Assembly: GCF_910596095.1 (NCBI RefSeq)
Contig: NC_056538.1
Coordinates: 21,996,501-22,060,500 of the forward strand
Origin: Thunnus maccoyii
Lineage: Eukaryota > Chordata > Actinopteri > Scombriformes > Scombridae
DNA length: 64,000 nucleotides
Direction of reading: 5' to 3'
Below the pieces are notes generated by a model. The model was not told the origin of the DNA and ran no database searches. It worked only from the letters and a program-made list of their open reading frames with translations. Positions 5,715 through 44,500 of the stretch are shown here, one piece after another (within the stretch, counting starts at the first letter, position 1; each line of letters starts with the position of its first letter). The translations under genes and the position numbers were made by a program.

Positions 5715-8700
5715 TCAACTCTCAGTCCTCTTAAAGAGTCTCCTCATCAGTCTGAATATGATATTGTCTCTGACAGCCTTGGAGGCCCTCTCCCATAGGC
5801 TGTCTTCCTTCCACAGACCCCGCCCCTTCCTCTCAGCTTTGACCTCTGCCCTGTGCAGCCGTTTGTGGAGACGCCAATAGAGGCGAGAGTCAGGCAGGAC
5901 TCCCACGATGGCCGCAGTGCGAGCCAGACCCAGCTTGAGGACCTCTTCATTCAAGCAGCAGCTCCACATCGACCCCTGCTGGGGAGAAGAGGGAGGACAA
6001 GGAACTGGCTTTATGTGAAAATAAACTCATATCAGTTTGACATCACATGTCTCCTGGTATATTCTGTTAAAACTATTACTTTTCAGGCACAAGCTGAGAA
6101 ACTGATATTTCTTCCCATGTGTCTCAGTTATTAGCAGTGGTGGAAGAAGAACTAAGATCCTTTAGTTACGTAAAAGTAGCAATACAACAATGTAAAAATG
6201 CTCCATTACAAGTAAAAGTCCTGCATTGAAAATCCTACTTAGGTAAAAGACGTAAGTATAAGCAGCAAAATGTAGTTAAAGTATTAAAGTAAAAGTACTC
6301 ATTTCGTCCCTCTGATTGATATATTATTATATATGACATCATCAGTGTATAAGCAGCATGTTACTGTTGTAGCTGCTGGAGGTGGAGCCACTTTATATAC
6401 AGTTAGCTAGTTTAGTCCAGTGGTTCCCAACCTAGGGGTCGGGCCCCTCCCAAGCAACACCAGGTAAATCTGAGGGGGTTGTGAGATGATTAATGGGAGA
6501 GGAAAGAAGAAAAACAAAGTTCTGATACACAAATCTGTTTTCGGTTTTGGGACTTTTTCTCTCATCATTGATTTTTGGTGAAATATTTAATCATTTGAAC
6601 ATTTATTGAAATGAAACCATGTGAGAAGTTTAGAGGGAAAAATCATTATTTGGCAGAGCTGTTAACAACTCATAGACATCTGAAATGTGACCCTGACTAC
6701 ACACTGCTTTTTGTAAGACGTCAGAAGCCAAAAAAAGGTTGGAAACCACTGGCTTCATCTTTCATGTGTTGTATTTTAAAAGCTTGTTATATTATCCATT
6801 GTCTCAAATCTTCATCTGAAAAGTAACTTAAGCTGTCAAACAAATGTAGTGGAGTAGAAAGTACAGTATTTCCCTCTGAAATATAGTGGAGTGGCATCAA
6901 AGTAGCATCAAATGGAAATACTCGAGTAAAGTACGAGTACTTAAAATTGTACTTAAGTACAGTACTGAGTAAATGTACTTAGTTACTTTCCACCACTGGT
7001 TATTAGATGTCTCACCCTGCTTTGTGACACCAAACAGTGCAATATGTCGTCCTCTCGGCTGATCAGTTTTAACCAGACTATTTGGGCAGGCGCCAGGTTC
7101 TTCTGCAGCCATTCCCTCCCCTCTGGAGTCAGCTCCACTCCTGCAAGATTCACCAGCAACGGGGACGTGCTCACACCTGACAAGGACAGAAAAGAGCCAT
7201 TCACCATACATGTTAAAGTAAAGTAAAAGTTAAGGCTGACCTGTAGCATCTTCACTTGTACGGCCAGATTGTAGTCATGCGCACTCAAAAGTATGTGACG
7301 TGTAGGACTGTAAAAATAAACTCAACAGCAAATCCATACATTTTGAGGTACTTGTACTTTACTTGAGTATTTCCATTTTATGCTACTTTATACTTCCACT
7401 CCACTACATTCTTTTGACATCTTTAGTTAGAAGTTTCTTTTCAGATCAAGATTTTGGATGGAGAATATAACAAGCTTTTAAAATACAACACATTGTTAAA
7501 GATGAAACCAGATGAGTTGTTAACAGCTTCACCAAATACTGAATTTCCCCTTTAAACTTCTCACATGGTTTCGTTTCAGTACATGTTCAAATGATCCGAT
7601 ATTTCAACAAAAATCAGAGAAATTCCAAAAACTGAAAACAGATTTGTTTCGAGACAGAATAATTGCTGTTGAGTTTTGTGCCTTTTGTCCAATCCTTTCA
7701 ACACCACAAATGAAATTTGTTTGACTCTCAAAACCTGGGCAAATAAAGCCCAAACTTTTCGCATGACTAAAAACCACTAGAGTAAGTGGAAAAGTATGTA
7801 TTTTTATAATTTGTGTGACCTGGTCCTTAAAAATGTAGTGGGTCAAGTGGGACCAAGGTAATATTTGAAATAGCTAGTTGTCCTTCGTACTGACGTTGCT
7901 GATGGAGCAATCTATAAAAGTGTACTCTGCTCAGTGAGTACCATGATTTGATAACAGAGCTAACAAGCTTACCGTTCAATCTCACTCATGAAATGAGTAT
8001 AAAATGCATCCGAGTCTGACTTTACAAAGTAAAAATGTCACAATGACATTTTGGGTATAACAAGATTTAAAAAAGGTGCACCTGCAGTAAATTATCATGC
8101 TGTTGAACCGATGAGAGAAGCAGAAGGTGGGATTTGTGTGAGAGGAACAGATTTGACAAGCTGATTGCACTATTCAAATTTTTCAGATTCCCAATGACTT
8201 GTTCTTGTAAATGAACTCTCATCTTTTCTTTCACGTGTATGTCTTGCATGAGAGTGTATATGGCTCCATGATTTCACTCAAAGGATACCCCACTTTACCT
8301 TTGTGTTTTGACAGTAACGGAGAGAGGACTGGCAGATATATTGGGACATGCTCCACTTCAAGTCCTTTCTCTGCAATCGAATGAACTTTCCCACGAAGGC
8401 TGACATTCCTCTCAATGAAACGAGCAGGGATCTCAGACACAGCATGAAATTTGGTGATCTGAAAAGGTGGATTGAGACAACTGAGTGGCGATATAACTCT
8501 GACAATACATATAAAAATGCATTTCATTAACATATTTTAAAGGACAGGTTCACAATTTTTCAAGTCTATCTTAAAACAACAGTCAGATGCCCAAATGAAC
8601 TCTGAAAGAGGTTTTCCTCTCTGTAATCATCCCTCCTTTTCATACTGGCAGTTAAAAGATCCTCTTCAAATGTGTTTTCAATGTAAGTGATGGGGACCAA

Positions 8701-11441: not shown

Positions 11442-30237
<18,796 letters not shown>

Positions 30238-31060
30238 ACTCTTTAACGGGATCAAACTGCTGAGATTTGATCAGTCAAATCGTGGATTTCCTGCTACGAC
30301 GGATCCCCGACACTCAAAGGACCTCGCACTCCATCAGGGCAAACTTGGAGGAAGCTTCCCCTCTTCCTCCTCCTCCTCCTCCCTGGTGTATCTCACACAC
30401 AACACTGACTCACTGACTGGAAGTTTCCAATCAACCAATCAATCAATCAGATGCCAAGAATCCATTTTAGCATTTTGGATGATCAAGGGAGGTTTCATAA
30501 AGGAGAATAAATTGTCTTTTTAATGACTGTAGATTGCAATCTATGAAATTTTATCTTAATGAAATGCCTGCATATATTATTTATTGTAAGTTTTTAAATG
30601 TGGAATTTTTAATGCTTAATATCTTTTATATATTACAAATCCTAGAGGGTGTGTACATCTCACTGTAAAGGAATTGGTTTAAAAAGTGTAATTTTCTCAA
30701 TTACAACACGGAAAAACCTGTTCAAGTGAATTTTGCTGTAGATTGCTTTTAGAATCTTATTTTTTCAAAGGGTACAGACCTTTTTATTGCCACGCTGTAA
30801 AAATGAAGTAAAAGCTGGCCTGGGCATTTGCGTCCCACCCAATGAGTGGATGAGACTTACCTCTCTGTCTGCTTTGGCTCCAGAGTCTCTCGCACAGTAA
30901 CTCAATGAGCTCTGAAGAGGAATTAAAAGGTACATTGTCAGATTATATATTTTATATAACAGATTTAGGTAATTGTGTGTGTATATGTGTACATATAATT
31001 GTGTGCCGCTACTGATGGTGCAGCTTCTGTTTTAGGAATAAAGTGCGTCTACATTATCCT
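30238..31060 (+). other. med13: med13 3' UTR
   Basis: Sequence after the TGA contains a CCTCCTCCTCCT run and becomes AT-rich. Canonical AATAAA signals lie at 30506-30511 and 31037-31042; the second is followed by the T/G-rich CTTGGTGTTTTTTC, the layout of a cleavage site, so the longer UTR probably ends near 31060. Mammalian MED13 has a long UTR carrying miR-208/499 sites; I did not find a convincing seed match by eye. Confidence 0.7.
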
Positions 31061-31204
31061 CTTGGTGTTTTTTCACCTTTTTTCAACAGGTTTCAACAGG
31101 TGTAAGTAGATAAATGTTTCTCCAGTGATGAAGTTGTTCTTACTTTTAAAGTTGGAGATTTAAGGTTTTTGGAAATGCCAGTTTAAGCCCCAAATATACA
31201 TTGA

Positions 31205-31300
31205 ATTTCAAAAACACTGGATCCTACACTTCCCATAATGCAACTTGATAGCATCTTCTATTAAACCCTCAATGACATGTGTCCTACTACCATACTACAT
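31205..31300 (+). repeat. Dispersed repeat, second copy near 40560
   Basis: ACTGGATCCTACACTTCCCATAATGCAACTTGATAGCATCTT reads almost the same as ACTGGATCCTACATTTCCCATAATTCAACTGGATCAGCATCTT near 40560-40603, in the same orientation. Both are followed by related sequence ending in ATG-rich AAACCTC blocks. It is a short interspersed repeat of unknown class. Confidence 0.65.
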
Positions 31301-34300
31301 ACTAATTATACACAGTATGTGCTATTACAGATCTGCATAGTATACTGTCTTTTAATGCAGGTAGTATACAGTTTATTTACAGGAAAAGTGTCGATCACAC
31401 TACAATCCCAGAATGTCACTGCTAATTAAATTAATTAATATAAATATACTTTATATAAAATATTTAAGATGCTTATTTCAATATAATACCACTTTTCACA
31501 TTTATTAAGAAGAGAAAAGTTCTCTCCAGTTCTGAGCTGCTCCTCCATTTCCTTTGAGAATTGCAGTGCATTGTGAGACAATAGTGATAACCACCAGCAC
31601 ACTCAAATCAAGCATTTTTTTTAGTGTACATATTAACTTAATTGAGGAAAAAAATTGTCACTTTTCCAGTGTGAACTCTACATACCCAAACAAGAATTTG
31701 TTTGTAGTATGGAACGGGGTCACAGCAGTTTTTTAAAGTCCAGTTTGTAATGCAAGCACAATCTGTGGTCTCCAAACAAAGATTACCAAAAACATGTCAC
31801 TTGTGTAAGTTTTTTCTTCACTTTTTTTCTTTTTTTCAGGCTTGACAAATCTCCAGAGCCACAGAAGAATTTATACGACTATAAAGTGACTAGTAAATTT
31901 CCTTTGACATGTAAAATCAGTGAGATTCCCCTTAAAACTCCAAAGATGCAGAGAATTGCTAAAAAGAAAAAAAGATGCACCAGACATAGAAGTTTCCATT
32001 CGAATAATGAAGCCAAAGAAATGGTGTCTTGGACGTATTTCACTCAGGTTACGATGTTGGTGATCAATCTTTAACAAGACACAAGAAAAGTGTGGGAAGA
32101 AAAACTTTCAGTGTATTTTTCAAAGTACTAACAGAGATCTGTTTACTTGACATCCACCTTTGCAGAAAAAAATTAAAATTCATCATTAGCTTACATTTGC
32201 ATAAGTATTCCATAATATTATTCAACTTTTGTCACTTAAAAAGCCACAGTAATGATAAATTTTTGATCTTGATATACAGTATGATAAAATATCAGACATT
32301 ATTATTCTCACATCCATGTTTTTGATAGTAATCCCTTCAATTAGTTTTTTAAGGAACTGTGACAAAGATAGATACTCAGAAGAACATTTTACAGTTGAAA
32401 AATAAACAAATTAAAAAGGCAACATTGTTACTAAATAACCTCTTAACATATCTTGTGTGTCATTTCTTGCTACTCATCAGCCAACATATACACCGACACT
32501 GATCTGTTGACATTCAGTTTAAATCTACAGATAATATCAGTCCGATAGATTTATTCGTTAGGTTCCAGTCACGTGTAATTGTGTGATTTAGATTTATATT
32601 TTAATTTGTTGCAAATTTGTTTTCTTAAGTTAGTTTTCAAATGTATCAACAGTTTAGCCCCAGGGACTCTTTCCAGATAAATCCAAAGACAAGACATTAA
32701 CAGACAAACTAGGAGTGTGGTGAATGGCAACTGTAAAATACCACATTGTAGATCTAAATTTGGACAATCAGCTTTCTCTATTACCAACTGAAATCAAATT
32801 AATTCCAGATATAAAATCTGGAAACTATTTAAGATTTAAAAATGTAAAATTTTAATTTAAAAGGTTAAGTGCTGGCTAAAAGCAAACCAGAGCTGTACCC
32901 ATTTTTAGCTAATTATACTTTAAATTACTAAGGTGTGTGTGTGTGTATGTATTATATTGTACTTCCATATCTGTAGTGTATTGTGGTTTTATGATAATGA
33001 AAGCTGTATATTTTAATTACACTGTACATATAAAGCCCAACTAAGGGCGAGAGTTGAAAATTAGCAACAGCTATAAACTCTATGCAATGTGCTTTGTATT
33101 GGAACTATGTCAAATTACATCGTCCCTATCAAATAAAATTCAAATAAAAATAATAATAATAGCTGTGCATGAACAAAATCAGCCCACAATAACTTCCATT
33201 GTAGCTCCTTGTTGGGGAGGCTGCTTTAAGTTGTCTAATTAGTCTTGGCACATCAGTGAATTGTGGGTTATAGAGGTTCAGCCTAATTGTTCATGGCCGG
33301 ATGAACACTGTTCCTCGACAGAGCAGCAACTTTAACTCTGCCCATACTAACAGGATTTGGATGGTTAGCGAGAATGGAATTAGCTAATCAAGGAGAACAT
33401 GTCATCCCAAAGCCTCATCCAATCAGCGTCTTATGTTCTGCTTAATGGGATCCAATGGAAGGGTAGCCCACTTCGTTTGAGGCTATGCAGGACAGCGTGC
33501 TCAGCTGGTGCCAAATCACAGAATTAAAAAGAAATCTGTTCCGTTATTTGGAAACATTTAATCGTGAAACCCATTGTGGATATATCAGGATTTGGTGTGT
33601 TTGTAGCCAGCAAACAGGTTCTCTTAGATTATGTTCAGTGCCATCTGTGTCACTGTGTGAGCGTCTCTGTGACCACATGCTGCTGTGTAGCTCAAATGTG
33701 TTTCTTTTACAGATCTGCCTTTACAAATAGTTCATTTTGACAATGTAACTAAGAGAGTAGGAAGAAAAAAGATCGGAAATATGTGTTTAATTTCCATTAT
33801 ATCCAGTATTTTTTGTATGTAGAATTGACACATTGACACACTGTACAGTACACACTAGAGAGCAGAATATTTGTCTTGTATACAGTCTCTTAAAACCCCC
33901 TTACATTTAAAAAATTAGAATTAAAGTAAAACGTTAATGTCATATGACATCTATGTGCATGAACATGTACAGACTGAAAATAAATTTAAGACTACCTATT
34001 TATTCTGCCTTCTGAAATTAATTAAGGTTCGTAACAGAACTTCATGAACTGCTAGATTGTTGGCAAGTAGGATTTGGCCACCTTGAGATTCGAACCCATT
34101 ACCTTTGTATCCCCGGAGAAGGTGACTTTACTGACTGTGCGACTGAGGACACATGGTTTCCACACCTTCTCACAAGTTGAGGCAATGACATCACATGCAA
34201 AACTGGGGTGTTTTTGTCCGTTTGAAACAACAGTCAAAATGTTGGTGATAAAATTCTGAAAAAAATCACATATCATTCTGCTGGTTTCAGGTGTATTATC

Positions 34301-34419
34301 AAACACTTTGATGAAGTTATCTAAAGAATGTCTCTGTCAATATTGGAAGTATATGAATGAAGACTTGCAGAGATACACTGTATATGTTAATTGATTTTAC
34401 ATATTTTGAAAAATATAGA

Positions 34420-35320
34420 GTGATGGACTTCTGACCAAAGGTTGCAGTGAGAGAAACTTTTGTCACCCATCAGTGCACGTGCTAAAAACATTTCAGCTCT
34501 CTTGGACCAACGGTGAAATTTAAATGATTTTTGGAAGTTTTGACTGCAAAATTGATGAAAATGTGAGTTTATGCTTATAAGCCACTTACCTTTTCGCCAA
34601 TCATGACCACACTTTATTCAATGAATTGAGCATGTCCGGAGAACATGTTTTCACTAAAATCCGTGCAGCTAATTATGAGTTATAAACTTTTCACATTTGT
34701 GGCGCCTCCAAGTGGCAGAATATCCCAGGACTGCGTAACAAAACTCAGACCTAGCACCTGAACATGTGTACTAAGTTTGGTTACAATAGCTTAAGGCAAT
34801 TTAGATTTATGAGCGTTTATGTAAAATTGAACTTAAAGACAGGTTTAAAAATGTATAATTTCAAAACGGATTGATCATCAAAATTTCACCTTAAGATCAG
34901 TGAAGTCTGTAGATGACACAGTTTTGGGACAATTGGCCCAGCAGTTTCTGACGAGATGTCGAAAATGGGATTTTGGGAAAATTGAGAAAAAGTCGCAAAA
35001 CTTAACATTTTTAGAGCAGAAGACCATTGGAGCAAAGATCCAGATGAATTGAGAGATTAAAATGATGACTCTAGGCCGAGCTGTTTTTGAGATAATTGCT
35101 AAAATTGACCTCAAGCATCACCTTGACCAATGAGTGTCATTTTATGTGCCTGAGTAGTGGGTTGGAAGTTGCAACCCACCTGCAAATTGGTGTTTCTAGG
35201 TCTTACAGTTTTTGCTGCACGAACTGCGCTGTAAGCAGAGAAAAATAGTAAGAAGAATAATGAGAACAAAAACAGTAGAGTTCCAGGAGAAAACGTTCAC
35301 TGATTGGACCCCTAATAACT
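34420..35320 (+). repeat. Unclassified dispersed-repeat-like block
   Basis: This 0.9-kb stretch has no coding potential, keeps a uniform composition, and ends with CACTGATTGGACCCCTAATAA, a phrase I recall from the ends of a common fish repeat family. Blocks such as TGAGTAGTGGGTTGGAAG and GTGGCGCCTCCAAGTGGCAG have the same feel. No terminal inverted repeat or duplication was found, so boundaries are approximate. Confidence 0.4.
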
Positions 35321-36139
35321 ATTAATAGATAATAATAATAATAATAATAATAATTAGTTTACACTGCACAGATATGACTATGTATGTTACAATTTATTTA
35401 TGTCAGATTTTCATTTTCTCACTAGCATCCCTGTTGAGAAAAACCCTTCTGTTGCCACATAAGCTGTCTTTGTCTAAACTGAATCAGAAGGGTTTAGAGG
35501 GCTGACGGGATTACTGTAAGCAATTAGGAGTAGTTAATGGTCTTTCCTGGTGTTGGTAAGTAACACTAATTGATCAGGTACAGCACACAGCTGACACTGA
35601 CTCATAGCAACAGGTGGTCCATGCTGAACTGAAGTCACTGTACCAGAGCTGCAGACGGATGCCGAACCGGACTCGTTCAACTGCTGTTGGCTGACTGGAT
35701 CGACACAGTTAATTAAATATATGAAAGGCTGTATTAAACGCCTTTGTCTTTACTTTGTTGATTGATAAACAGGCTTTGAGGGGCTGAATCTTGTTCACCG
35801 GATAATCAAATATCAGGAGGTCAAGAGATTTCACCTCATCACACAGGTAAGGAACATATTTACAGAATATATGCGTTTGATTTTGTCAGAACGAGAAAAT
35901 ACTGCAGCATTAAATAATGAGATGGAGGCCAACCATAACATCTTGCATAACATTACACCTGCAGATTACTTTTTACCTTTTTATGCTTAGAAGGCTGTTG
36001 AGAGTTCAATGTGACTTTAAACAACAATTATGTGACAATCCACATAAATATTCAAACATCAAAATCAACATTTCTTTTGTCTTTTCCCCTCATATTAAGT
36101 TCAATATGCACTGATTGTTCAATTCATGACTATGTACAT

Positions 36140-36500
36140 TGGCATTGTAATTGTTTTAGAGTTTCCAGTAGTGATTACTTTCGTGATCAATCAATCTACA
36201 AATTATTTCTTTGATTAGCTGTTTGGTCGATAAACTTTGGTCAGTTCCCTTCACAAATTTCTAGAGTCTAAGTTGACATCTTCAAATGTCTTGTTTTGTC
36301 CGACCAACAGTCCAAAATCCCAAAATTTTCATTTTACTACCCTTAAAGAAAAAGAAAATGAGAAAAATTTACATTTACAAAGTTAATTTTTCCATTTTTA
36401 CTTAAAAATTGTGCATAAAAATTGATTTATCAATTATAAAACTTACTGCTGAATATATATTTTAATATTCAAGTCAATAAATCATAGCAGCTCTAAATTA
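36140..36500. repeat. Degenerate MITE copy
   Basis: TTGATTAGCTGTTTGGTCGATAAA, GTCTTGTTTTGTCCGACCAACAGTCCAAAA and a closing AATAAATCATAGCAGCTCTAAA correspond to the interior and end (reverse of AGAGCTGC...) of the same teleost MITE family seen at 3730 and 29700. The copy is nearly full length but diverged. Confidence 0.6.
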
Positions 36501-37258
36501 CTTAAAAAGTATTAAGATGTAAAACTAATCTGTTGGCAATTGTTTAATAAAAGTGTTAAATATGAATTTTATCTTTATTTTATCTCACTTTTGACATCCA
36601 AGCACTATTGAGAACTCAAAAAGCACCAGTGCATCTCTGGAGATTTTTAAAGTATAGGGTTCAGTTGATGTATGATTTAAGCAGCAGGTTTTGTCTTTAA
36701 GTTGAGTTCCGGTGCTCTTCGTGCCCTAAGATAACACAGTGAGCTGTTTCTGATGTCTCATTCACTCCGTTTATGCTCCTAACAAACAGCTCCTTTATGA
36801 GATTAAGAGATTTCTGTGGCGCGCTGACATGGACGAAATTTAGAGTACATAAGATGTGTAACCTCCAGCTAATCTTGTCTCTATGAGAAAGGAGGGATCA
36901 GGCTATCGGATTGCCACAGCCTAAAAAGGTTATAGAGGCACTGGCACAAACAGCACTAGAGAAATGGCTGCTTAGCTAAATCTGCACCATACTTTATAGA
37001 AAAAAAATGATATGTCACAGAGACAACTCAACTCTTTCCTTTCATGTAAATGCAGCCAAAGATGTTTCACAATTATTATTTACTCTCAGTGGCCAAAAAC
37101 ACAGAACCCACTGTACATTCAAACGTAATCCAATAGACTCTTGTAATAAATGTGATCTGTGAGAAACTAGAAAGCAATGTGAGAAAGCTATTCATCATGT
37201 TGTATTGTAAGGCAGCCCTGTTACTTTGTCTGTCCTCTGTTGGTCTACACAATGAAAA

Positions 37259-37449
37259 ACAACATACATAAAGGCAGTTTTAAGCATCTTGCTTGCAAAA
37301 TATTAAAATATTTATTGAAGATTCTGATATAAATCAACAAAAGCGCACAGAGATTAAAAAAAAAAAAGGTTGTACAGAAATTGATCAGAAGCTTCAATAA
37401 ATATTTTAATTTTTTGCAAGCAAGATGCTTAAAACTGTCTTTATGTTGT
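37259..37449. repeat. Perfect-looking 65-70 bp hairpin (short MITE)
   Basis: The left arm AGTTTTAAGCATCTTGCTTGC with flanking ACAACAT and AATATTTATTGAAG is repeated in reverse complement on the right, ending AAAACTGTCTTTATGTTGT. Arms are roughly 65-70 bases with few mismatches around a loop of about 55 bases that includes a poly-A run. It would form a stable stem if transcribed. No family was recognised. Confidence 0.85.
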
Positions 37450-37805
37450 CTTTGTCTTGTTGATTTTGGAAGTCGTGTTTTATTTCTCTCTGTATTTATA
37501 AGATTGACTAAATATTGACTTGCTGCTGCAGAGACAAACGTTATGTTAGCCTGTTCTTCCTCTAGTTTATATTCACATACTGCACATCACATTGCTCCCC
37601 ATTCACTAACAGCATTATGTGTCCTTGGAACAGATGGATCCTAAATTAATTAAATGGATTGGCACATTGAATGCCTCAGTGGGATTATCGCCAGTAATGC
37701 AATCTAACAAGATACTGTCATTTGCAAGGCAAATTGCCTAAGATGTATATCATACAATATGCATGTCTCAAAACAATATACTGTATTATGTTTATGTTTC
37801 TGTGA

Positions 37806-40332
37806 ATGTTCAGTGATTCATTCTGTTTGTGTCATACAGAGGACTTCAAGAACCTGTTGTTGCCTGGCTGGTCTGCTAACTTTCTGGAAAGCCTCCATCT
37901 TGCAGGCGAACTGAGATCCAACATTAACTTCAAACCAGGTGTGTTTGAGCTTCAACAAAACTTCAACCAGCCTCACTTATGCCAAGAACAAACCCACTGA
38001 CTCACATTATTTACTGACACATTATATCACTGTTTCTACTGTTTCTACTTCCTCAAAAAGAAATGCTTACCAAAATGATCTTCCTTTGTGATTTTTCCTG
38101 TAGAATATACTGTCCTGCCTGCTCAGGAATCAAAAGCACAATTGCTCTCATCTTCACACACCGTGGTCCATCAGCACAAACACATGCATCAGTACACTCA
38201 CCAGTGTGCCTTCACTCCCATCCCTCATCAGTCCTCTGCTGGCTTTCCTGCTCCAGCTATGATGGGAGTTCAAGACAGTGATGTAAGGAGATGTTTTTTT
38301 CATTACTTTCACCAGCTCAGTGTTATCTCTGCTGAGTCACTTCACTCAGTTTCTTCCATTTTTATCTTCTTGCCACTTAACCACCAAGAATAGTTTCAAG
38401 ACGTCATATTTTACCTCATGTTACAGTTCATCCAGCATCTTCTCAGAAGAACAACGAGGCCGCCCTCCTTAACTCCTGTCACTGCCTTCCGCAGAGCGAC
38501 ACAGAAGTCCTTCAAGTCAACAGTACGTCCAAGATGCATCATTCAAAACAAGAAATGTCAATATAGCAATTAAAATGTAGAAAGATTCAGTAAAACTTAA
38601 TTCATTTATATGTCAAAACTTAGTTTGTGATTATTACAATGATTTTAATTAAAAGAAGCTTAGTAAATCATTTAATTTGTTGTAAAAAACCTTTTTTTTT
38701 CCCCTCCAGAAACGAGGGAGATGGGGTGCACTGCATGTCTGCATAGCATGGCAAATTTATTACCAAAAGAAACTCAAGGTAACAATTAAATGCATCAATA
38801 TTTTAGTCACAGAAACAGGTTGAATTTTTTAAAAATGTGGTGCTTTGCGTGTGAAATTAAAGTCAATTAAATTGTATTTTTGTATTTTTGTCTGTCATCT
38901 ACATAAACTAAGATATAATGTGAAAAAATACCTAAATTATGATAATATTTGAATGTTTTTTTTAGGATTTATCTTTGATTAATTGTCTTATTAATAACTA
39001 AAAAAGTGGTCAGGTCAGAAGAGGTCTATATTAGGTCTTTCAGTTGCCAGTGTCGGTCAATATCAAGACAGAAACAGCAGCATTTATGAACAATATAAAC
39101 TTTAAATTAACAACAGTTTTAAGACGGTTTGGGTCAAGATGTCAGACAATTCTACACTGTGGAGGGATTTTGATGATATCTCATATTGCACTGGCAGATT
39201 TGTATCTGGTTCCAAAATTAAGTTGATGGTATCATTTAACAGAAAATGCAGCCAAAACCTAACAGTCTCCATCAAGAACTGACCACCAGACTACCTGACT
39301 CAGTGCAACACAAGGAACCAGTACAACCCTCTTGCATACAGCCCAATCTAGGTGAGTCCAAGAACAATAATGTCATGAATACAGAAAGTTTAGCAGCAGG
39401 ATATGACAATCACGATGATCTTCTTCTCCTTTTCAGATTCTACATGTGGACAGTCAGCATATGGTGAAAGGAGTGAAGCAGGAAAAACAACAGAGAATAG
39501 GAGCCACTTCCAAAAAAGTCATCCCTCTGACCTTTACACATCATCGACAGCGTCTTACCACATCCATACCACCAAGAGGGAGAAACTGGGACAGCTCCCG
39601 AACCTAAACTGGAAAGAGAAAAGGGATGAGAAAGAGGAGCACAGACACCACCAGCTGGATTCCTGTTCGAATGTTTTACCTCTTAAAGAAAAGTCTCGGG
39701 GTCACACAGTAGTCACTCCTGAACTTGACGGCAGACATGACACAGTCTCACATGACAGGAAAAGGCCGCTCAACTGTGGCAGCTTGATTAAGGTGAAGAG
39801 GGTGAAGCAGGAAGTTGTAGATGACCGGTTTGATCCATCTCTGCTCAGTATGACTCGTAAAGATCCGTCATCTAACACCATGTTAGTGCAACATATTAAC
39901 ACGAGTGACACCTCTGCCCTGCATTGCTACAGCAGTGGATGTAATGTTGCCAGAGCTCCTAGGGGGGTTGTCTCTTACCCAGGAGCTGAGATGTATCCTT
40001 ACCAAACTGCTTCATGGGAGCAATTGTGGACTGGATTCAAGACAATGGATCACAGCTTAAGACAACAACTCCTAGGAGACTATTTACTAAATAGCTGCAA
40101 GGTGATCAAGATGCCTCGTGCAGCACAAAAGCACAAAGAAGTTTTTCACAGCTTCTCAGCGCCACATCTTCGTTTCCCTCTTGCTATAAGGCAGCAGGAG
40201 ACTGCTTACCTCAGCGGGAGGAAGTTTATGAGCTCAGGTAATGAGAGCCATCATCTCCACCACTGCCATTCTGCTACCATGAGTCATCTCCTTCATCCTG
40301 GCTTTCTGGCAGCATCCCACACGGGGTGTTGA
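37806..40332 (+). CDS. Uncharacterised multi-exon gene, probable nuclear protein (5' end uncertain)
   Basis: Six exons join with consistent phases: 37840-37938 (perhaps extended to an ATG at 37806), 38104-38282, 38427-38522, 38710-38778, 39243-39351 and 39437-40332. From 37840 onward this gives 482 codons before the TGA; starting at ATG 37806, 493. An in-frame TGA immediately precedes 37806, so either that ATG is used or an upstream coding exon exists. All donors and acceptors are canonical. Exons 3-4 carry the most structured part: a basic segment with LTPVTAFRRATQKSFKST joined to KRGRWGALHVCIAWQIYYQ, an amphipathic helix-like motif followed by lysines. The last exon is hydrophilic, rich in His, Ser, Lys, with IKVKRVKQEV (a VKQE sumoylation consensus and a possible nuclear localisation signal) and a His/Ser-rich C-terminus ending SHTGC. 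No signal peptide or membrane segment is seen. I do not recognise the family and assign no function. Confidence 0.75.
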
Positions 40333-41599
40333 GTCTCAAGGGTCAGCCTGACAAAAAAAAAGGAGGGCAGCTACTCCCATAGCAATCACTCACTTATAGG
40401 ATGTCACTGGTCATTCTGGGCTGCGCTGATTCAGTGGAGCTCCACACTGTCCTAGAAAATCTAGTGATAGGGAGAAACTGGGACACACAAGAGACACTTT
40501 TTTGTTTAAAGGTCAAAATTGAAGAAGCAGAGGTATCTTGACTTTTACCCTCCAAAAGTACTGGATCCTACATTTCCCATAATTCAACTGGATCAGCATC
40601 TTTCATTAGAACCTCCATGTCTCATAAATCCTTCTTTAAAACCTCATGTAAAAAAAAAAATCTGCACAGTGCCCCTTTAATGAAGCATAGTGGTCTTCTT
40701 TGACAGAAATTATTTCTTGAATGGATTGTTTTTACTTACACTGTATGTATGACCTGTATGACCCTTTGTTTGATTATATGATTAGAAATATAGAGATGCC
40801 CAAGAAAGCTGCTTGGTGATTTCTTTTAGGTTAGCTTGAGTTTAAAATCTTGATTTGGACTTGAGGGTGGAATATGAATTGGTCAGGTGGTATCAAAGCT
40901 CATGTTTGGAGGTGGAAAAGCTTGTAAAATCTAAAATGTGCAAGCAGCTGTTGAAGAGAGTTGAGTTAATTACTTCATGTATAAGTTTCAGATAAACTAA
41001 CCTACAAATAAAACCAAGAAAAGCGTACTTTTGTATCAAAAAATGTATTTAAAATGTATAACAATGATAACTTACTTCTGCATTAAACAATACAATTAAG
41101 CAATATTCCAAGGCTACGATAAAAAACATCATCTGAAATCCTCTGTGAGGGCAACATCATGGAAATATCACAGAAAATGGAACATGGTGTGTTAAGAACA
41201 CGTAGGGAATAACATTTCATAGAACTAGCGTTGTAGTGCTTTTGACTCATTACATTCACGTAAGCTTTGTCAACTCACAGAAACATTAACCTATGTTTTA
41301 CAGGCAATTTTATATAAATGCGAGACATCACAAAGCTCAGCCGAGGCATTAGAGTTACTAAGAGCTGCAATAGTGAAACTGTGGTCCCAAAACAGAGATG
41401 ACAGTAAATCAAAGTAACATCACTTTAAAAACGCTAAAGACCATTCGGAAGCTTTGGCTCAAAAAAATAGTCCCAGTGATGACTTCACTGACAGCTCCAC
41501 TGCAAAAATATAGTAAAAGAGGCAAACCAATTTAATTGCATAATAGCTATAAGAGAGCCTACACCCATCAGGCTGTACGGTGCAGTGCACGGTGGACAA
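40333..41599. other. Convergent 3' flanks of the orphan gene and hinfp
   Basis: The plus-strand gene ends at 40332 and hinfp (minus) ends at 41600, so this holds both 3' UTRs. An AATAAA at 41007-41012 on the plus strand is a candidate signal for the orphan gene. A copy of the repeat seen at 31205 lies at about 40558-40650. No other coding sequence is visible. Confidence 0.6.
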
Positions 41600-44500
41600 T
41601 CACACCACGTCCATGCCTAGGCCCCTTGCGACCTCCGTCAGGGCCTGAACTGCTCCAGATGTCCCACTAGTGTCACAGTCCTCCTGAGCTACTCCTCCGG
41701 GCTCGTCCTCAATGTGAGGGATGGTACTCATGACACAGTAGACGGGAGAGTCGCTGCCTCTGGGGCTGGGCTGAGACGAAACGTCCTCGCCTCCAGAGAG
41801 CTCTGAGGAGTATGAGGACGAGGAGCTGGAGGAGGGCGAGGAGGATCCTGCAGGTGAGCTTCGACCGCTCTCTGGTGTCACTGCTGGTCTCTTGTTGCGG
41901 CTGCTGGTTCTCTGACCTTTCCGAAGGCTCTGAGGCTTCTTGGCCATGTTCTTCATGATCTCCTTCGTCACTTCCACAGTCTCAAACCGTACCATGTTTA
42001 CTTTTAGGAAGCCGTCTACATCCTTTCTGTATCTGTGGAGAAAACACAGAAAAACCACACATGTAATATTTATTTTTAGATATCTTATAGTTACATTTGA
42101 TGCATGCTGAGAGCTGAAAAGTTAAGTGTTAATTGGCTTATTTGACCTACCTAAAGCGGGAATGTCCAGAAGGCCATTTCAGCTCATGCTTCTTGCGAAG
42201 GTGAAGTGTGAGAGTGTAACACCAGGAGAAGACCTTATCACAGATATGGCATTTATATTTGGACATTCCTCCAACCTGTTAGTGAAAACCATGCAATGGT
42301 GTCAATGACCGAGCATCATCGCAACTGTCAACAAGATTACAGCAGAGGTCGGTGCCAACAAACCTCGTGCACTCTCTTGAAATGATGATTCATGGTTGGG
42401 AATGTGTGACAAAAATATTCACAGCCCTCCACTGTACAGTGGTAAACCGACCCCTCGTTGTGGACCTCTGTGTGTTTCTGTAGATCACGCTGGTTCTTAA
42501 ATCTGTAAAAAATAAATAAATAAATAAAAAAGAATATATGACAACATGAATATATGATGCTGAAATAATTTGTATTCATTAAATACAAAACAGGGATAGA
42601 TGATAAACACATTAAAACCTCACTACAAATGTTTGATGTTGAAATAATTTGTTCCAAAGGAAAGGGATACATAAGGAGACTATTCCTTAAAAACTATATC
42701 TTGGTGCTTTTAAGGTAAAACTCCTCTTTACTCCTATATGGAGCAGATGACACAGGTGTTATTTTTAGATTCTCATCACTACATGAAGAGTGAAATGACA
42801 AAACTGTCTTGTCTGTCTTTTCTATTTTCTCTCATTCTGTCTACCTTCTGTACCTACTGTTTTGTAGGTACAACTGTACATCACTAAAATGTTATGCAAA
42901 TAATGCTTACTTACTTACAAATAGGCAAAGAATAATAACCTTTATAAAACAGCAGAATAAAGAAGTTTCTTGAAATGGCTGAAACTTGATGCATTACTTT
43001 TAATGTCAAATTTACTGAACACTAGCTATGAAGAGCTGGTTCGATATGCTGTGTGACAAAGTTCAGTTGTTGTCAACTGGACATCTAATCAGCTGTTCTG
43101 AAGCTCTACCTTTTGTCACAGAAGTCACATGGGAAGGGCCGCTCATCACAATGGCGGAACCTGATGTGGATCTTCAGAGCTGCCAAAGTGGTGCAGGTCA
43201 TGTCACAGAAAGGACACTTCACCTGATTCACTGGAAGTAAAAGAAAAGAACACACAGGATGTTGTCTGGGAATATGAAAATATGATACATGACACAACAA
43301 TTACTAATTAACAGCTGGGAATGGATCAAGCTTTATATAGCTGATAAATCATTAATCAAAAATGCTTTCATCTGGCACAGCCTGACCTTGCAGATCAGCT
43401 ATATGATAGTATGATTTAAACAAGCAGCTAAATGTACTGTAGCCACAATTGAAGCTACCCTGAAGGAAAAACCTTGCACACTGAGTAAAGACCTCATTCA
43501 ATATGCGATTATTATTATTATCATTATTATTATTCAATTATTTAACACTAAACATTTTACTGCTTATGGTTGCTTTAAAACTTTACAACACTGTAGTTAC
43601 AATACAATTACAATATCTGGGTAAAACTAATATGTCAAATGTTGATTGGAAATGAGCTCATCATCGTTAATTCTGATAAATTCACACTTACTAACTGCAA
43701 TGTCACAATAATTTAAGTTTAGAGCTGTGAAAAGTTACCATGCTGACGAACATGATCCCTCAAAAGCCTCTCGCTGGAAAAAGCTTTGCCACAGTGTTCA
43801 CACACCAGCGACTCTGTTCGAACGAGATGGGTGTATTTAGAGAAATCAGCATTAAACAAAACAATTAGCATCACATTTAGTAGAAAAGTTATGCAAACCA
43901 AAGTGTCATTCTCACCTACTGGCTCGGCCTGCCTGTGGAGGTGGTCAAACAGCTTTGTGTTGCTGGAGAACATGCTGCCACAGGTAGGACAGGCTACAAG
44001 TCTCTCCTGAGTGTGGCTCCGCATGTGTTCTCTTAAACGGTACCTGATCTTGAAGAAGGCGTCACAGCCTGTGATAGAAACATGAGCACACATACAGAGG
44101 TAAAATTTAAATGTGGGACCAGTGAAGTGAGACACACCGTGAAGATCATTAACATCTCTTTAACCTTTTCTTGCTCAGTTATACCTGTCCAATGGCAGAA
44201 TAGAGCCTGCTGTTGTTGTGGGAGAGACTGCAGCTCAGCACTTTCAACATGATTGTCCACATGTCGGTAATACCACTCAGGATTGTTAAACGCACTCTGT
44301 ATAGACACAAAAATATGAATTCTATATTTTAATATCTATATTTATTTAAGTAATCAATCGATTATATACTGTGTGACTGCATTTGCCTTAAACTAAAAAT
44401 ACTTACATCACAATGCTCCCACTGGCAAACGTATCCATCTGATCCTTCTGGAAGCAAGTTGTTGCTATGCAAGCCTTGGTTGCAGCTGGGCAGGTCAGGA

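Follow-up and report, generated by a model that had tools for sequence, protein, structure and literature searches.

The 64,000-nucleotide stretch of the Thunnus maccoyii genome analyzed here (the window) carries a small gene downstream of med13 that, judged by sequence and position, is auts2b, the copy of auts2 that derives from the teleost genome duplication. This identification is based on a position shared with auts2a, in terms of the order and strands of med13 and a map6-like gene, together with exon homology. The best reading of the locus, which we consider probable, is a retained, fast-evolving, and still protein-coding auts2b for a short AUTS2-type nuclear cofactor. AUTS2 acts in brain development and has been linked to human autism, and the accessible text of PMC7732068 describes the gene as occurring across animals. 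The auts2b locus is already known in other fishes, and the gene does not represent a new category; its interest lies in the intact frame found here, set against the published loss elsewhere.

An open six-exon frame

Six exons on the plus strand, spanning 37840-40332 and bordered by AG and GT, join into 481 in-phase open codons that end in a TGA. These are exon A (37840-37938, 99 nt, entered and left in phase 1), exon B (38104-38282, 179 nt, phases 1/0), exon C (38427-38522, 96 nt, 0/0), exon D (38710-38778, 69 nt, 0/0), exon E (39243-39351, 109 nt, 0/1), and exon F (39437-40332, 896 nt, entered in phase 1, with the stop at 40330-40332). None of 3,000 dinucleotide shuffles of the joined sequence was free of stops (mean, 19.7; minimum, 6), and the remaining five frames contain 21 to 28 stops each. 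Exon F alone (297 codons) was likewise never stop-free in 3,000 shuffles. These results confirm the continuous six-exon frame described in an earlier note on this DNA.

The borders of the exons were scored using splice-site weights that we presumed to apply. Five of the six acceptors lie above the local 95th percentile (2.85), the exception being that of exon E (1.1, under the 90th), and four of the five donors exceed the corresponding value of 1.10, with the exon C donor at about the 90th percentile (-0.4). The earlier description of the splice sites as canonical therefore holds for the AG/GT dinucleotides at every border, but the exon E acceptor and the exon C donor are weak. At the 5′ end, an in-frame ATG at 37806 reads into exon A (37806-37839, +) if the acceptor at 37839 is unused; it directly follows an in-frame TGA, and its context, with a T at -3, was judged poor. 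Since an AG acceptor lies 5′ of exon A, a spliced upstream exon is equally possible as the 5′ end, so that the ATG proposed earlier as the start exists in frame without being favored over that alternative. A search for coding exons from med13 to exon A returned one trivial candidate (6 codons) and zero internal exons at the thresholds used.

Exon homology and synteny with auts2a

A Pfam search with the joined protein returned a single family, Auts2 (PF15336; 26.6 bits, where the cut-off is 23; E value, 7.1e-6), in which residues 125-167, encoded by exons D and E, match positions 1-49 only of the 218-position profile. For comparison, we modelled exons 9-19 of a gene in the same genome at C13:27197162-27206806, which is called auts2a here from its sequence, its neighbors, and its Pfam score; as a positive control, these exons score 344.8 bits against the same profile. 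When auts2a exons 9-19 were searched against window positions 30000-42000 with tblastn, 10 rows were obtained at an E value of ≤10, three of them below 1e-3. The three significant matches occur in order and all on the plus strand, and the next best E value is 1.7. They pair exon B with auts2a exon 9 (E value, 2.5e-7), exon D with exon 14 (4.4e-5), and exon F with exon 19 (3.3e-9). Because tblastn was run without composition correction, shuffles are the better control: the z scores are 9.7, 11.6, and 12.2, respectively, and in each case 0 of 500 shuffles reached the score. In a semi-global comparison over the whole length, the score was 121, against a mean of 13.1 (standard deviation, 6.7; maximum, 44) for 1,000 shuffles.

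It is extremely improbable that the gene is instead an unrelated, fish-restricted nuclear cofactor. Beyond the Auts2 segment, most of the protein is without a Pfam match, and a PDB search yielded five rows at an E value of ≤10, none relevant and none below 0.07 (best, 0.075); against this stand an Auts2 match above the cut-off and three collinear auts2a matches. The same matches place the gene, and they refute the earlier statement that it could not be assigned to a family. The suggestion in the earlier note of a fish-restricted or diverged vertebrate regulator is upheld for its second half: the gene is a diverged vertebrate gene, a fish-specific duplicate of AUTS2 and not a fish-restricted orphan.

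The best-conserved part of the protein is the block WGALHVCIAWQIYY, as the earlier note had supposed, and both Pfam PF15336 and the comparison with auts2a of the same fish identify it as the AUTS2-family exon-14 core. In both genes the core sits on its own exon (exon D, 69 nt, 0/0; auts2a exon 14, 72 nt, 0/0), and 9 of 24 aligned positions differ, one of these being a gap. The His-X repeat of exon 9 is present in exon B in degenerate form, with 4 units in a row compared with 11 in auts2a. The two genes have collinear exons 9, 14, and 19, compatible intron phases, the His-X repeat, and a KVK element with a psi-K-x-E motif in common, whereas the PPPY motif and the whole Auts2 profile are found in auts2a, the window protein having a partial profile and no PPPY. 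No significant match was found in the window gene to the remainder of the Auts2 domain (exons 15-18), and no counterparts of auts2a exons 16-18 were recognized.

The other exons were compared individually. Exon C may be the counterpart of auts2a exon 11, which is also 96 nt with phases 0/0: an ungapped alignment of 32 residues was equaled by 18 of 2,000 shuffles, and in local mode the score was reached by 38 of 500, which is suggestive only. Exon E, which accounts for the second part of the Pfam match, is by this and by its phase and order possibly the counterpart of auts2a exon 15 (142 nt, 0/1); the alignment score itself is not significant (126 of 2,000 shuffles). The score of exon A with the N-terminal part of auts2a exon 9 was reached by 860 of 2,000 and 1,021 of 5,000 shuffles. 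Two candidate origins of exon A were rejected. Exons A and B do not appear to be an exon 9 split by a new intron, as the beginning of auts2a exon 9 is matched above shuffles by neither exon A nor the exon B start, and a candidate auts2a exon 8 is proline-rich and by eye unlike exon A. A comparison of C9 with C13 for auts2a exons upstream of exon 9 gave nothing convincing.

The exon phases of the two genes are compatible. The five internal junctions (1, 0, 0, 0, and 1) fit those of auts2a at 8/9 (using the candidate exon 8), from 9 to 15, and at 15/16, as expected if exon A corresponds to exon 8 or to part of exon 9 and the other five to exons 9, 11, 14, 15, and 16-19. Since auts2a exons 10 to 14 have phase 0 at both ends, dropping exons 10, 12, and 13 keeps the frame, which also makes phase agreement in this region weak evidence. 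At the 3′ end, the alignment with auts2a runs five codons beyond the exon F stop (40333-40347, +), a hint that this stop may have truncated a longer ancestral C-terminal tail.

To place the gene among its relatives, we considered searches of the fish's own genome, which covered 782 Mb in 54 contigs and for which match counts are lower bounds. With exons C-D-E as the query (E value of ≤10), at least six rows were found, two being the window gene itself. One row each on C9 and C13 gave a clear AUTS2-family core when translated, and the rows on C14 and C11 look like chance matches. With the auts2a sequence, at least six rows fell at four places, namely, C13 (two), C9 (two), C20, and the window gene. 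We take the C9 gene to be fbrsl1 and the C20 gene to be fbrs, both names being guesses. At C20:5659313-5659405 the core exon is more diverged.

It is very unlikely that the window gene diverged from fbrsl1 or fbrs and not from auts2. Exon D scores 77 with both auts2a and the C9 paralogue; however, exon F scores 112 with auts2a exon 19 against 56 with the C9 paralogue, exon B scores 101 against 85, and the med13-map6 synteny is common to the window gene and auts2a. In this comparison the C20 gene was considered at exon 14 only, by eye.

Synteny was examined on both sides of the gene. The upstream neighbor is med13 (Pfam Med13_C and MID_MedPIWI), whose nearest copy lies on C13 at 26.701 Mb (+), with 90% identity over the exon used; auts2a exon 14 follows at 27.202 Mb (+) and the nearest copy of the map6-like exon of the window at 27.395 Mb (-). 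The arrangement of med13 (+), auts2 (+), and map6-like gene (-) is accordingly found both on C6, which contains the window, and on C13, constituting double conserved synteny. The names map6 and hinfp are ones that we presume for these neighbors; the piece assigned to hinfp has Pfam C2H2 fingers. The map6-like first exon (57390-58223, -) comprises 278 open codons, with copies on C13 (63%) and C12 (48%), and a Pfam search with this piece returned no family. The accessible text of PMC9454499 lists med13 and map6 as neighbors of both teleost auts2 copies.

Elsewhere in the window, minus-strand open frames at 6897-8536, upstream of med13, resemble a separate gene, and their 8234-8536 piece had no match in a Pfam search. 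At 59627-62153 (-), a 664-codon open frame has a weak DUF4371 match (29.8 bits, under the cut-off of 32.1), and the adjoining piece at 61788-62153 has a THAP domain (36.3 bits); we presume that this frame is perhaps thap12, a transposon-derived host gene.

Retention or decay of auts2b

Published accounts describe auts2b as reduced or lost in other fishes. As far as the accessible text of PMC5555464 goes, most of the non-otomorph fishes examined have at the auts2b site a gene that is reduced and retains one conserved exon; in other teleosts, fugu excepted, a predicted gene has a single conserved exon and a highly diverse remainder, and transcription at the site is supported by RNA-seq for three species (molly, platyfish, and tilapia). 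A teleost survey covering 76 species (PMC9454499, in its accessible portions) reports auts2b lost in 52 acanthomorph species, with remnants that are non-functional in the eight species examined. A death of the gene about 150 million years ago has been proposed for acanthomorphs. The remnants in that survey were found with one exon as bait, an approach that would overlook diverged exons such as B and F. Among the papers listed in our literature search, none concerned an intact auts2b in acanthomorphs. The window gene shares with these reduced or remnant copies both its site and the core exon that survives in them. In contrast to their one conserved exon or non-functional state, however, it has two further homologous exons. 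Recognizable exons 9 and 19, compatible phases, and a frame open throughout are added here to what has been published.

We saw no disabling change in any of the 481 codons. Computed for these codons and ten splice sites, the probability of observing no such change drops to 0.05 once neutral substitutions reach 0.011-0.038 per site, the value varying with the indel rate assumed. When auts2a exon 19 was allowed to decay neutrally to 30% identity in simulation, a mean of 10.1 stops accumulated and 0 of 400 runs remained stop-free; the short exons give a weaker test, as 41.5% (exon 14) and 12% (exon 9) of runs kept an open frame. A death about 150 million years ago is therefore at odds with the state of the window copy. 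Identity to auts2a at the three codon positions is 0.51/0.61/0.39 over 191 codon pairs, a pattern that comes from a protein-guided alignment, which favors positions 1 and 2, and that could also predate a loss. Since dS is saturated (NG86), dN/dS against auts2a is not computable.

Two alternatives to a retained coding gene bear on these results. In the first, the loss of auts2b function is a recent event in this lineage, and the frame of a dying gene is still open for lack of time. The very strong divergence from auts2a, the two weak splice borders, and the continuation of the auts2a alignment past the stop are in line with this, as is the suggestion in the accessible text of PMC9454499 that northern pike auts2b is perhaps undergoing pseudogenization; the intact frame would be compatible with a loss that dates back less than some 0.011-0.038 neutral substitutions per site. 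However, this requires a late event just here, whereas an older loss would have left stops, as in every exon 19 simulation, and we regard it as unlikely, although with an appreciable chance. In the second, the locus is a remnant that is transcribed without being translated, and its importance lies solely in the core exon or the RNA, as the papers suggest elsewhere, where a conserved exon with transcription (PMC5555464) and a non-functional state in the species checked (PMC9454499) are described in the accessible text. This is quite improbable given the 481 open codons across six exons, which no shuffle reproduced, and the homology in exons B and F besides D.

The predicted product and its possible role

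The tail encoded by exon F includes an element alignable with one in auts2a. VKQE, at residue 306, lies in a stretch alignable with VKEE of auts2a (KVK/VKQE against a KVKEE element). The sumoylation consensus pointed out earlier is thus a real motif, but since two such motifs were seen where 0.62 was expected by shuffling, VKQE alone is weak evidence. AlphaFold2, applied to exon F alone with one sequence, gave a mean pLDDT of 36.5, with helices, all of low confidence, only at residues 193-218, within the stretch that matches auts2a. The earlier view that the remainder of the protein is disordered fits this value; coming from a single-sequence model, a low pLDDT is consistent with disorder and is no proof of it.

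Missing from the part found are the N-terminal half, PPPY, the greater part of the Auts2 domain, and the C-terminal end. The gene would be an auts2b reduced to about its C-terminal half and diverged almost beyond recognition. If expressed, its product may be a short protein located in the nucleus, with a remnant His-X repeat, the AUTS2-family core, and a largely disordered tail; the nuclear cofactor of the earlier note is plausible. Zebrafish auts2b has the same med13/map6 neighborhood in the accessible text of PMC5555464 and PMC9454499. As in zebrafish and other retained auts2b genes, the predicted product is limited to the C-terminal part, with a shortened His-X repeat and an exon-14-type core; the zebrafish gene has 14 exons over 20 kb and encodes a 748-amino-acid protein, compared with six exons that span 2.5 kb and hold 481 codons (counted from exon A) in the window.

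A further parallel is offered by the human short isoform AUTS2-C, which according to the accessible text of PMC9008325 is a C-terminal form that, like the window gene, is without the N-terminal half. AUTS2-C starts after the His-X repeat, whereas the window frame includes the repeat, although a start after it is possible. The same source cites reports by two groups that the long AUTS2 form binds non-canonical PRC1 and the short form does not, and states that mutations in the His-X repeat of AUTS2 disrupt P300 binding. By analogy with the short AUTS2 form, auts2b might act at chromatin although it is without the N-terminal region. It could be a weak activator through contact with P300, or it could compete with auts2a for shared partners.

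Collectively, these findings raise the prospect, tentative and at somewhat less than even chance, that auts2b persists in the fishes for which its death was announced, in the form of a mini-AUTS2 that works, evolves fast, and retains the core, the His-X segment, and a portion of the tail. Just as tentatively, we suggest that this mini-AUTS2 has lost the N-terminal half, the WW-binding motif, and the greater part of the Auts2 domain and has a changed, perhaps antagonistic, role beside auts2a. If this is true, the record on auts2b loss would be corrected. The division of labor among the His-X repeat, core, and tail of AUTS2 is an unsettled question, and a naturally reduced AUTS2 with an open frame would show which parts are dispensable, something that knock-outs in fish could test directly.
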